DNA of 64,000 nucleotides from Actinomyces mediterranea (GTDB lineage: Bacteria; Actinomycetota; Actinomycetes; Actinomycetales; Actinomycetaceae). The notes below the pieces were generated by a model. That model saw only the letters and a program-made list of their open reading frames with translations. It was not told the DNA's origin and made no database searches. Within the stretch, counting starts at the first letter, position 1. The number at the start of each line of letters is the position of its first letter. A program made the position numbers and the translations under genes. The stretch covers positions 186,001-250,000 of the forward strand of contig NZ_FTPB01000003.1 in NCBI RefSeq assembly GCF_900155595.1, in the 5' to 3' direction. Shown here piece after piece: positions 1 through 3,183 of this stretch.

Positions 1-12
1 TCACCCGCCCCC

Positions 13-435
13 TCACCTGTAGTAGCAGTACGAGTGCTTTGGACACTCCGTCTTAAAGCCGTGGCTCCATCCTTGGTACCCCGCCCAGCCAACGGGACCA
101 AGTCCATTTGCGTACGCAAGTAAAGCCCATCCCCACTGTCCCTCCCACATGCTCCATGTCACTTGGCCTGTGGCAGCACGGGCAACGCCATCGTTGTACG
201 CCCACTTGTAACCACCCGCCAGGACAGCAAAGACGACAGTGACGGCTACGCCTACTCTTCTCGGCGACTCGGGTTCAGATTCTCTTTCAAATGTCGTACT
301 CTCGACCGTGACAGACACGCTATCACGGTCTTGCATTGTGACAGTATCAGTGGAGCCGTACGCGACTCCAGCGCCACTGAGTACGAGCGCACACGAAGTC
401 AGTGCACTGATCACAGTCCTCTTCAACGTCGTCAT
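13..435 (-). CDS. small secreted Trp/Gly-rich protein (bacteriocin-like, unassigned)
   Basis: 140 residues. The ATG at 435 is chosen over an upstream start at 489 because AAAGGAG lies 7 nt before it. Residues 1-28 form a Sec signal peptide (two basic residues, a hydrophobic core, AYGS end). An acidic Ser/Thr/Glu stretch follows, then a hydrophobic segment ending LAGGYKW, then a C-terminal half rich in Trp, Gly and Tyr that ends with two cysteines in CPKHSYC. I do not recognise the family. Size, export signal and closeness to a two-component system resemble bacteriocins or peptide-regulated secreted proteins, but no lactococcin-972 or lantibiotic signature is visible. It has its own promoter region, with a motif shared with the two-component operon upstream. 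Function is inferred from context only. Confidence 0.6.
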   Translation of the reverse strand: MTTLKRTVISALTSCALVLSGAGVAYGSTDTVTMQDRDSVSVTVESTTFERESEPESPRRVGVAVTVVFAVLAGGYKWAYNDGVARAATGQVTWSMWEGQWGWALLAYANGLGPVGWAGYQGWSHGFKTECPKHSYCYYR

Positions 436-487
436 TGTTGTCTCCTTTGAGACAAAGCTGCTTGAGTGATTGTTGGCCGACGTTGTC

Positions 488-528
488 ATTTTATGATTTG
501 CGACTCGTCCTCTTCTATCGAGGAATGT
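488..528 (-). promoter_or_regulatory. candidate promoter and operator of the secreted-protein gene
   Basis: Read on the minus strand, ACATTCCTCGATAG (528-515) is followed after exactly 21 nt by TAAAAT (493-488), a good -10 box. There is no recognisable -35 where the motif lies, as expected for an activator-dependent promoter. The same 14-mer occurs at 3183-3170 in front of the two-component operon, again with a -10-like TTGAAT 21 nt away. The likely binder is the NarL-type regulator encoded at 1091-1789; this is inference. Confidence 0.45.
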
Positions 529-1073
529 TAATGATTGTTGGGATGGTGCCTGTCTCGGCGTTCATCGCCAGATAGCATCCGACCGAAGACGCACGGCATA
601 CCCCGCTTCCACGACACGTGGTACGGCACAGACGCGTGAAACACGTTGAGTACGAGAATCTGGGCCTTTGCAGGTGAGGATGGAGGTCGTGGGGTGGGAC
701 TGGGTGGTGGTGGGGGTTGAGGTCTCTCGGTGATGGGAGTTCTTACACGACCTGTCAGAGAGGCCTGGGCGTGTGTCACGTTACCGGCAGTCTTGCTGAT
801 CTCACTGCTTTCTTGTCCCTGGATCGGCTCGGTCTACGAGCGCTGTGGCAGCAACTCAACGAGCAGCCCACCGTCATCGAGTGTGCCGTCATCGAGTTGT
901 ATCCGTGGTGTTTTGCTCGTGGTGGCCGGGAGTCTGTAACCCCGACAACAACCGCCTCAGAATACTCCTCAACGGCGGCGGCCCACACACCTACCCCACG
1001 CTCAAATACGAAGAGCCGGTTGGAGTCCCCACGCAAAGGATCGATGGCGCAACCCTATTTCCGGGACCGTCGC
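529..1073. other. intergenic stretch without a supported gene
   Basis: About 545 bases between the response regulator and the secreted-protein promoter. Several short open frames exist on both strands, but none combines a ribosome binding site with sensible composition. One frame on the minus strand is mostly Pro/Ser, and one on the plus strand (730-939) has a hydrophobic start but no Shine-Dalgarno sequence. It may hold a decayed peptide gene, because a third copy of the regulatory motif lies at its upstream edge (1074-1090). Confidence 0.4.
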
Positions 1074-1090
1074 CCCTCGATCGAGGAAAG
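1074..1090. promoter_or_regulatory. third copy of the TTCCTCGAT motif, palindromic
   Basis: On the minus strand ACTTTCCTCGATCG matches ACATTCCTCGATAG at 12 of 14 positions. It contains the perfect 12-bp palindrome CCTCGATCGAGG (1076-1087). It starts right at the response regulator stop codon. A TAGGGT hexamer, acceptable as an actinobacterial -10, follows at about 20 nt. No convincing gene lies downstream. Confidence 0.3.
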
Positions 1091-1789
1091 TCAACAACCC
1101 GGAGTCGACCCGATCCGAGCGGCGCGAACGGCGAGTTCGGTCCGTGAGGTGCAGCCGAAGCAGTCGAGCAGTTGTGTGACATAGGTACGCACCGTCCCCT
1201 CCGAGTAGCCAACCTGCTCTGCGATCTCCCGATTCGTCACGCCTTGTATCAGGCACTCGTAAACAGCCCTCTGGCCTGTCGACAGTGAGTCGACGATCCG
1301 TTCCCACCGTTCAACCGCCTCGTGCCGTTCTCCGAAGGATCTCAACACATTGACGGCGGCATCCATCACTCGCGGCGAGAAGACATGCCTCCCTGAGACG
1401 ACGCGCACGAGGGAGTCCACGATTTCATCGATCGGCAGATCCTTCGTAAGGAAGGAGCAGGCTCCCGCAGCCATTGCCTCGGCGAGGCGATGCTGGACCT
1501 CGAAGGCCGTGAGCATCACGACTCTCACCGATGAGTGCTGCTCAGACATGATCCGAGTAGTCTCCACTCCGTCAAGCACGGGCATCTCAACATCCATCAG
1601 AACGATGTCGGCAGGGCGGTGTTTCACAAGCGCGAGGACCTCGCGCCCATCAGCAGCGGTCCCGACAATGCTGATGCGAGGATCCAGACCCAGAAGGGAG
1701 GCGAGGCCGTCGCGCAGATCAGGATCGTCATCCGCCAAGATCACCCGGATGGGGCGGATATGATCGTACGGCGACATGGGGTCGATCAT
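1091..1789 (-). CDS. NarL/FixJ-family response regulator
   Basis: 232 residues. The N-terminal receiver domain shows the acidic triplet DDD at 20-22, the phosphoacceptor Asp66 in VLMDVEMP, a conserved Thr in MLTAF and Lys in LTKDLP. The C-terminal LuxR-type helix-turn-helix lies around residues 165-225 (LIQGVTNREIAEQVGYSEGTVRTYV). Its start codon overlaps the kinase stop as ATGA (1786-1789), so the two are translationally coupled. It probably binds the TTCCTCGAT motifs found on both sides of the operon. The signal is unknown, but a peptide ORF directly upstream of the kinase suggests peptide sensing. Confidence 0.9.
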   Translation of the reverse strand: MIDPMSPYDHIRPIRVILADDDPDLRDGLASLLGLDPRISIVGTAADGREVLALVKHRPADIVLMDVEMPVLDGVETTRIMSEQHSSVRVVMLTAFEVQHRLAEAMAAGACSFLTKDLPIDEIVDSLVRVVSGRHVFSPRVMDAAVNVLRSFGERHEAVERWERIVDSLSTGQRAVYECLIQGVTNREIAEQVGYSEGTVRTYVTQLLDCFGCTSRTELAVRAARIGSTPGC

Positions 1790-2940
1790 TCCATTTCCTC
1801 ATTTCGGGCAGTATCAATCGGCATGACGAGAGATATCATCCAGCGCCGGAGCACCGCGCCGAAATAAACATCGCCGCCGAGCGCCTGTGCCCGGCTCTGC
1901 AGACTGACGATTCCCAGTCCGGACGACAATTCGAGTTGAAGATCCGGTTCTCCCTTCGAAAGATCCGATACGACGGTGACTTCCACGCCGAGATCCGACA
2001 CATCTGCCGATACATTGACAATCGAGTCAACTGGCGCATATTTTACGCAGTTCATCAATGATTCTTTGAGGAATATGACTAGGAATCGGAGTCGCGCGGC
2101 TCCCAGAAGCATTGACAACTCATGTTCGTCGGGAAGGGCGCTGTGCAATCGTCGGTGTCCCATGCGAAGCATCCGGGCGGCATCATCGAGTGCGTGCGAC
2201 ACCGACTCATTCATCGGATCGTTGCTGGGTTGCAGCATGGTCACTGTATGACGCAATTGAGTGATGGCACGCGCTACTGATTGTTCAATGTCGGCAAGCG
2301 CGTGCGAAGGTTGATCCCGTTTGGGCATTTGAAGGGAGCGGACCATGATGAGCGCCCTGGTCAGATCCGTGACGACCGTGTCGTGAAGCGTCACGGCGAG
2401 CTCTGCATTCGTCCTATGGGCGAGGTACTCCACCTCCTGTTTTAGCAGTTCAATTTGCTTACTACTTGTCAGCATGACTAGACCAAGTGGTACGGCGATG
2501 ACCGCTTGCAGGAGAATCGCCCAGACGTAAGTCGTCATCGATCTCACTGTTGGATCCAAGTAATACGCGAATGCCACAAGAATCCCACAGCACACAGCGA
2601 TGAGCCGGCGGCGACGTGAGATCAACTCTGCAACTGCGAGAACGACGAGAAAAGGGGTCATAAGAGAAGCGAGGGCGTCGGACGGCGAGATGATGACCAG
2701 GCAACTCACGATAATAACCGTCAGACTCGCAGGAGTAGAAAACCAAGCAGCTGCTCCAGTAGCCACTGCGATTGACATTGATGCCGCCAATTCGAGCCAC
2801 GTCAAAGGCCTTCCAAGCAGTGCGACTGAGCAATCGAGTCCGAGGAATACCAGTGCGACCATTGGGTATGCGAAGCGCTTTCCCGCGTCCTGAATCCAGC
2901 GAAGAGGGCGGCGAACGCGCTGCAGGAGCCTTTCGTTCAC
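1786..2940 (-). CDS. NarL-type sensor histidine kinase with multi-spanning N-terminus
   Basis: 384 residues from the GTG at 2940; an in-frame GTG at 2955 is the alternative. The 2940 start is preferred because it overlaps the stop of the upstream peptide ORF as GTGA. Five or six membrane segments fill roughly residues 25-160. A HisKA_3 dimerisation helix follows, with the phospho-His in TLHDTVVTDL. The C-terminal ATPase domain has an N-box (ESLMNCVKYA) and a G-box (SGLGIVSLQSRAQALGG). It should autophosphorylate and pass phosphate to Asp66 of the regulator at 1091-1789. A short-looped polytopic sensor without an extracellular domain is typical of kinases that sense peptides or membrane stress. 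Confidence 0.88.
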   Translation of the reverse strand: MNERLLQRVRRPLRWIQDAGKRFAYPMVALVFLGLDCSVALLGRPLTWLELAASMSIAVATGAAAWFSTPASLTVIIVSCLVIISPSDALASLMTPFLVVLAVAELISRRRRLIAVCCGILVAFAYYLDPTVRSMTTYVWAILLQAVIAVPLGLVMLTSSKQIELLKQEVEYLAHRTNAELAVTLHDTVVTDLTRALIMVRSLQMPKRDQPSHALADIEQSVARAITQLRHTVTMLQPSNDPMNESVSHALDDAARMLRMGHRRLHSALPDEHELSMLLGAARLRFLVIFLKESLMNCVKYAPVDSIVNVSADVSDLGVEVTVVSDLSKGEPDLQLELSSGLGIVSLQSRAQALGGDVYFGAVLRRWMISLVMPIDTARNEEME

Positions 2941-3101
2941 ACGCGACCCCGGCACAACTCACTGTTCGGAAAAACCAAACAGAAGAGTTCCACGGGAGAA
3001 TACTGAACAGTCGCATCGGGGCGCTCAACGGAGACCACGGGCATGACGAGCCCCATCATCATGGACATCACCGCCATCATTCCAAGCACTCGACGAATCA
3101 C
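2937..3101 (-). CDS. small exported peptide ORF upstream of the kinase (candidate signal peptide)
   Basis: A 54-codon ORF starting at GTG 3101, with GGAGG six bases upstream. The product begins MIRRVLGMMAVMSMMMGL, a basic start followed by a Met/Val-rich hydrophobic core, then PVVSVE as a plausible signal-peptidase region. The short mature part holds two cysteines in FCLVFPNSELC. The stop TGA (2939-2937) overlaps the kinase GTG, so the ORF is the first gene of the two-component operon. I know no family for it. Ribosome binding site, signal peptide and coupling together support a real gene; a role as autoinducing or bacteriocin-like peptide is inference. Confidence 0.55.
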   Translation of the reverse strand: MIRRVLGMMAVMSMMMGLVMPVVSVERPDATVQYSPVELFCLVFPNSELCRGRV

Positions 3102-3169
3102 AGTTGACCTCCACTGGTGTCGCTGGACAGACTCCCGTATCCATTCAACACCAATGAGGGCATCCGCGA

Positions 3170-3183
3170 CTATCGAGGAATGT
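3170..3183 (-). promoter_or_regulatory. candidate operator of the two-component operon
   Basis: ACATTCCTCGATAG on the minus strand is identical to the site at 528-515. A -10-like TTGAAT follows 21 nt downstream, the same geometry as in the secreted-protein promoter. The peptide ORF starts about 70 nt further on. This suggests autoregulation by the NarL-type regulator. Confidence 0.42.

Follow-up and report, generated by a model that had tools for sequence, protein, structure and literature searches.

A putative peptide-pheromone regulon controlling secreted effector cassettes in Actinomyces mediterranea, with likely counterparts across the Actinomycetaceae

The 64,000-nucleotide (nt) stretch of Actinomyces mediterranea analysed here (the window; contig NZ_FTPB01000003.1, positions 186,001 to 250,000, forward strand) carries at its left end what is probably an autoinducing peptide-pheromone regulon controlling secreted effector cassettes, judging from gene order, shared upstream sites and comparison among genomes. 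The minus-strand order is a putative regulator site, an open reading frame (ORF) for an exported peptide, a kinase, a response regulator, a second copy of the site, an exported 140-amino-acid (aa) protein (the effector) and a small hydrophobic ORF (cassette 1). These are followed, outside the window, by another site, an exported paralogue and a second small ORF (cassette 2). Features within the window are collected in Table 1.

Table 1. Features of the putative regulon, in window positions unless marked C1
Feature	Position	Strand	Remarks
Regulator site ACATTCCTCGATAG of the peptide-kinase-regulator operon	3170..3183	minus	exact copy; putative, from sequence only
-10-like hexamer TTGAAT	3143..3148	minus	begins exactly 21 nt after the operon site
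Exported 54-aa peptide precursor, ending ...YSPVELFCLVFPNSELCRGRV; proposed pheromone	2937..3101	minus	GTG start at 3101 behind GGAGG
Membrane histidine kinase, LHDTVVTDL phosphoacceptor motif	1786..2955	minus	overlaps end of peptide gene
NarL/LuxR-type response regulator (receiver + GerE)	1091..1789	minus	overlaps end of kinase gene
Degenerate site, 2 mismatches, abutting the regulator stop codon	1078..1091	minus	kept in G009
Regulator site ACATTCCTCGATAG of secreted cassette 1	515..528	minus	exact copy; putative, as above
-10-like hexamer TAAAAT	488..493	minus	begins exactly 21 nt after the cassette 1 site
Exported 140-aa effector	13..435	minus	signal peptide, acidic disordered propeptide, helical C-terminal part with two cysteines
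Small hydrophobic, immunity-like ORF (first bases)	1..4 (C1:186004-185747)	minus	cut by left edge of window

A sequence-only reading of this stretch had noted that the 14-mer ACATTCCTCGATAG stands unchanged upstream of both transcription units, each time 21 nt before a -10-like hexamer, and had judged this unlikely to be chance. Identity and spacing are both exact, and the whole genome (G000; 2,395,621 bases in four contigs) has just three exact copies, all on one strand and within 4.6 kb at this locus (C1:184590-C1:189183) rather than scattered over many unrelated places, against 0.008–0.010 expected per genome (Markov models of order 1–4 trained on the window). Matches with up to two mismatches number 16 (the three exact ones, one with one mismatch and 12 with two), and a reversed control pattern had two matches in the same genome. 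The third exact copy lies just outside the window, 1.9 kb further left (C1:184603-184590), in front of a duplicated copy of the secreted gene. Over 621 nt the two cassettes share 86% identity, and their sites thus count as one; the flanks of the operon site and the cassette site show no resemblance, so that the independent evidence consists of one cassette site and the operon site. The two-site pattern stands, although the third copy, as part of the duplicated cassette, adds nothing independent. The degenerate site behind the regulator gene is followed by about 550 nt, up to cassette 1, in which no exported ORF was recognised.

As expected of a peptide-pheromone two-component regulon, an exported peptide gene adjoins kinase and response regulator genes, at the window locus as well as at 55 of the 77 related kinases described below, and what is by its sequence a shared operator precedes both the signal operon and its presumed target genes. 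The N-terminus of the peptide is hydrophobic and Sec-like. The regulator matches Response_reg (E = 3.8e-25) and GerE (E = 3e-11), with the receiver residues present. The kinase, with four hydrophobic segments in a simple hydropathy scan, matches HisKA_3 at E = 4e-4, just under the Pfam cut-off, and no ATPase domain was matched in the Pfam scan; residues H191, E298, N302 and G348 are invariant in 14 homologues.

For the effector, an ATG at 435 preceded by AAAGGAG is a more probable start of the coding sequence than position 489. The secreted protein has no Pfam match at E < 0.01, no NCBIfam match and no relative in the PDB. An AlphaFold2 model (five sequences) is disordered at residues 1–57 and helical at 58–139, with a mean pLDDT (predicted local distance difference test) of 64, and a Foldseek search of this model against the PDB gave nothing better than E = 6.7. 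Curated profiles of known bacteriocin families matched neither the window effector nor the ORFs at loci L026 and L056, which by eye had resembled lactococcin 972. In both cassettes the secreted gene is followed by a small hydrophobic ORF, i.e., a small exported protein and then a small membrane protein, as in a bacteriocin and immunity cassette; the cassette 2 effector is a paralogue 82% identical to that in the window. Small hydrophobic ORFs were also found by eye beside effector homologues in G028, G030, G032 and G003. Genomes sharing the secreted protein include Schaalia cardiffensis CCUG 44997 (G009; Schaalia is a member of the Actinomycetaceae) and G030, G028, G032 and G023, which match S. 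suimastitidis, S. odontolytica, Schaalia sp. lx-260 and Actinomyces sp. HPA0247, respectively. Between the cassettes, outside the window (L025, 10539-11161, plus strand), are two small opposite-strand genes, one with a ribbon-helix-helix domain, which could be a toxin-antitoxin-like pair.

Among close relatives, S. cardiffensis has the whole unit, with exact sites at orthologous places before peptide and effector. Orthologous peptide, kinase and regulator genes are found at the same place, beside the same flanking genes, in G007 and G013, where other exported proteins and other membrane partners lie beside the orthologous module. The G007 sites are ACATTCGTCGATGG before the peptide, at the orthologous place, and ACATTCGTCGATAG before the exported protein. 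The pattern ACATTCSTCGATRG, whose S and R letters were derived from these same sites, has seven exact matches in 35 congeneric genomes, all at this locus (three in G000, two in G009 and two in G007); matches with one mismatch, in 30 of the 35 genomes, were set aside as mostly chance.

A kinase search within the genus found 18 places in 11 of 35 genomes, 13 of them with an upstream exported ORF ending in two cysteines, and a kinase profile gave matches in 83 of 213 genomes of the family. All 18 genus places and 59 family-search matches, taken by rank, make up the 77 kinases examined; five places scoring at least 155 bits (G384, G440, G383, one of G014 and one of G087) and lower ranks were left out. 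A peptide was counted where the ORF directly upstream was exported and carried C-x(4-10)-C close to its end, a rule set after examples had been seen. It was passed by 55 of the 77 kinases, whereas the controls gave two passes in 77 antisense windows and 27 in 1050 background windows; some loci are closely related, so these counts are not independent. The loop is C-x8-C in 42 of the 55 peptides, a proline stands 3–5 residues past the first cysteine in 49, and the two cysteines are invariant in 13 aligned peptides. At the level of the order, a peptide profile matched 75 of 297 genomes at E ≤ 0.05, mostly through the signal-peptide part only, and of 30 loci fetched, only the window's own and that of G087 (L095) combined a loop with an adjoining kinase. 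The claim is therefore restricted to the family. A second related kinase of the window genome (L048, C3:1428346-1429422) has a different upstream exported ORF, which ends DFGWLRKWYRIMRGGRW and lacks the loop; beyond it, on the opposite strand, stands a site-like ACTTTCGTCGGTAT.

The putative operator could also be followed across the family. The sequence ACATTCSTCGRT, read from G000, G009, G007, G351 and G478, occurs exactly upstream of 11 of 76 kinases (coding strand, up to 600 nt upstream), six of them new, and within one mismatch upstream of 17, compared with none of 760 dinucleotide shuffles. A weight matrix with consensus ACATTCGTCGGTAT scored at least 11 bits on either strand in 32 of the 76 upstream regions and in 18 of 760 shuffles (2.4%); it was trained on these regions, and the 32 are circular to that extent. 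Of 31 sites (23 before peptides and eight before effectors), 23 have a -10-like hexamer starting at a distance of 20 or 21 nt from the 14-mer; other pairs of offsets not touching 20 or 21 give such a hexamer in 0–6 of the 31. Eight whole genomes selected because they carry a site contain 18 exact 12-mers, of which 14 are at the module; none of the other four precedes a recognisable exported protein. In some peptide promoters the site forms an inverted pair (L200, about -393 to -350 from the kinase; L204, -441 and -408), as expected for a dimeric NarL-type regulator. When promoters were compared with the remainder of their loci in 25 cases, the repeats they had in common proved to be mostly GC-rich chance matches, and only those of L199 and L200 were taken further. 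Other subfamilies may use other operators.

The 25 loci that were read at length contain 25 sites within one mismatch, nine before a peptide, eight before an exported protein and eight elsewhere, two of the last group sitting reversed in a peptide promoter. The effector sites are in seven loci (G000, G009, G007, G351, G352, G358 and G087), and G338 is an eighth genome with such a site. What follows them differs: the window's own family twice in G000 and in G009, a protein with a hydrophobic C-terminus in G007, a 112-aa protein followed by an ATP-binding cassette (ABC) ATPase and permease in G351, and a 205-aa hydrophobic type in G352 and G338, while the exported proteins of G358 and G087 bear a PG_binding_1 domain. 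The single one-mismatch site of the window genome, ATATTCCTCGATAG at C1:419858, is unlinked to the locus and lies outside the window (L026 7859-3950, minus strand). It precedes an exported 109-aa ORF and an operon that includes lipoprotein-like genes, peptidoglycan-binding/adaptor-like genes and ABC genes. By its sequence, this operon could be a second target under the same regulator; in G009 no site within one mismatch was seen at a comparable place. An assignment by eye of the 109-aa ORF to lactococcin 972 was dropped, as it has no Pfam or NCBIfam match, and the ABC ATPase of the operon scored 127 bits against the lactococcin-972 ABC model, far below the cut-off of 254.85.

Divergence was compared among 24 full kinases with peptides (276 non-independent pairs). 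Where the catalytic parts are at least 0.80 identical (seven pairs), sensor identities lie at 0.57–0.75 and peptide identities at 0.41–0.89; in the pair L130/L136 the values are 0.98 for the catalytic part, 0.66 for the sensor and 0.41 for the peptide. Over all pairs, peptide identity correlates slightly more closely with sensor identity (r = 0.64) than with that of the catalytic part (r = 0.54). The faster divergence of the sensor is taken as supportive only; membrane parts often diverge faster anyway.

The following course of events would account for these observations. A Sec-type signal would direct export of the 54-aa product, which would then be cut down to a short C-terminal peptide whose two cysteines form a ring-closing disulphide. 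Gene order, gene overlap and the pattern of divergence suggest that the transmembrane kinase senses this peptide and phosphorylates the NarL-type regulator, which may then bind ACATTCSTCGRT-like sites in the place of the -35 box, 20–21 nt before the -10 element, and raise expression of its own operon and of one or more effector cassettes with a small membrane partner. Effector and partner are most likely a bacteriocin and its immunity protein, export and partner being visible in the sequence and killing presumed. Across the family, peptide, sensor part and effector would be swapped within a module that is otherwise retained. The peptide would accordingly be a diffusible inducer. The peptide-controlled regulon around a NarL-type two-component system that had been suggested at the outset thus gains support at the level of sequence, in that the combination of peptide, kinase, regulator and site is found again throughout the family, the distance to the -10 hexamer is maintained, and in eight genomes an exported protein has a second site in front of it. 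On balance it also appears likely that the Actinomycetaceae hold a new, family-wide class of peptide pheromones, made as exported precursors with a C-terminal CxxFPxLPxC-type disulphide loop. These would have their own kinase and NarL-type regulator lineage, a single operator common to several genera, pherotypes specific to strains or species, and control over antagonistic effectors that can be exchanged.

Several observations weigh against an autoinducing pheromone regulon of this breadth. The peptide rule is failed by 22 of the 77 kinases (including that of G009, where the peptide is present by eye), and three kinases of G002 and G001 (L053, L054 and L055) have no looped peptide, two of them standing behind lipoprotein-like genes. 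No site of at least 11 bits was found in 44 of the 76 upstream regions; 18 of the 25 loci have no second site before an effector, and G358 and G087 have the effector site and none within one mismatch before the peptide. The window effector family was found in seven of 58 genomes, in only two of which the module is adjacent. Effector and regulator thus join and part in evolution. The pair L130/L135 shows the opposite of the expected divergence (catalytic part 0.67, sensor 0.75, peptide 0.59), and no gene for peptide processing or export was recognised at the window locus. Large lipoprotein-like genes adjoin the kinase-regulator pairs of L053, L054 and L055, the latter two also with adaptor-like and ABC-type genes.

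It seems unlikely that the two-cysteine peptide is instead a small accessory, lodged in the membrane or extracytoplasmic, that adjusts the envelope-stress kinase encoded beside it, with the effectors as stress proteins. Stress sensing tuned by an accessory protein is the logic of LiaFSR-like systems, and the overlapping or adjoining peptide and kinase genes would fit it, as would a kinase with no large extracellular domain by sequence and the peptidoglycan-binding domain of the G358 and G087 effectors. The C-terminal loop, however, varies strongly between kinases with near-identical catalytic parts (L130/L136), which points to a ligand that changes specificity more than to a structural subunit, and envelope stress needs no exchangeable exported effectors. 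Self-inducing lantibiotics provide a precedent for another possibility, that the peptide is itself a bacteriocin inducing its two-component system and that the larger exported proteins are additional weapons. A short, exported, hypervariable peptide in one regulon with bacteriocin-like effectors is what this would predict; it is nevertheless improbable, given that the peptide is followed by an overlapping or adjoining kinase gene and no separate small immunity gene, that the loop is kept at eight residues with a proline in most copies, and that peptide and sensor identity rise together. That motif, peptide and two-component system are unrelated, the 14-mers being duplication copies and the small ORFs chance frames, is already disfavoured and highly improbable: although two of the three exact sites do come from the duplication and the peptide rule was made after examples were seen, the flanks of operon and cassette sites are dissimilar, the sites recur in other genera with the same spacing, and control windows contain peptide-like ORFs in 2–3% of cases against 55 of 77. 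An autoinducing peptide-pheromone regulon remains the best explanation of the locus.

Trueperella pyogenes is presumably in the same bacterial family as the window organism. Its PloS/PloR system, known for biofilm regulation (PMC9692790), is similar in being a two-component system. The actifensin clusters of Actinomyces, also in the family, are bacteriocin clusters with a LuxR family factor; they have another structural peptide and another cluster, and the available part of that report names no kinase, response regulator or quorum sensing (PMC6989792).

The literature searched, in which subscription journals are mostly not covered, contains no description of such a peptide family, and the gene unit is apparently undescribed so far. 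If the interpretation is right, dozens of predicted signal peptides are directly testable by synthesis, the operator offers a means of cataloguing regulons from sequence, and the loci add new families of secreted proteins that may be antimicrobial. Peptide quorum sensing is well known in Firmicutes, and to our knowledge little of it has been described for actinobacteria.

Two known kinds of system invite comparison: the Agr-type cyclic peptide systems, and ComCDE, Blp and Pln, the bacteriocin regulons that streptococci and lactobacilli control by peptide pheromones. Like Agr, the window system would have a short cyclic signal, a polytopic kinase and specificity groups. It differs in that the peptide has two cysteines, not one linked to the C-terminus as in a thiolactone, and the regulator is of NarL rather than LytTR type; no AgrB-like membrane protease was noticed among the ORFs on reading the locus, a genome-wide search not having been made. 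Compared with ComCDE, Blp and Pln, the regulator is again Response_reg plus GerE (NarL) and not LytTR, the kinase is HisKA_3-like, and the peptide has a conserved two-cysteine loop and a Sec-like N-terminus in place of a double-glycine leader; no dedicated ABC exporter was seen among the ORFs on reading the locus, exporters elsewhere in the genome not having been searched for. What is shared with them is the architecture: peptide, kinase and regulator genes in one operon, one operator standing before both that operon and the bacteriocin-like cassettes, effectors that are exchangeable and paired with small membrane proteins, and a receptor and peptide that diverge together. With neither the regulator class nor the leader and exporter of the streptococcal peptide-pheromone regulons, the locus would yet work like them.

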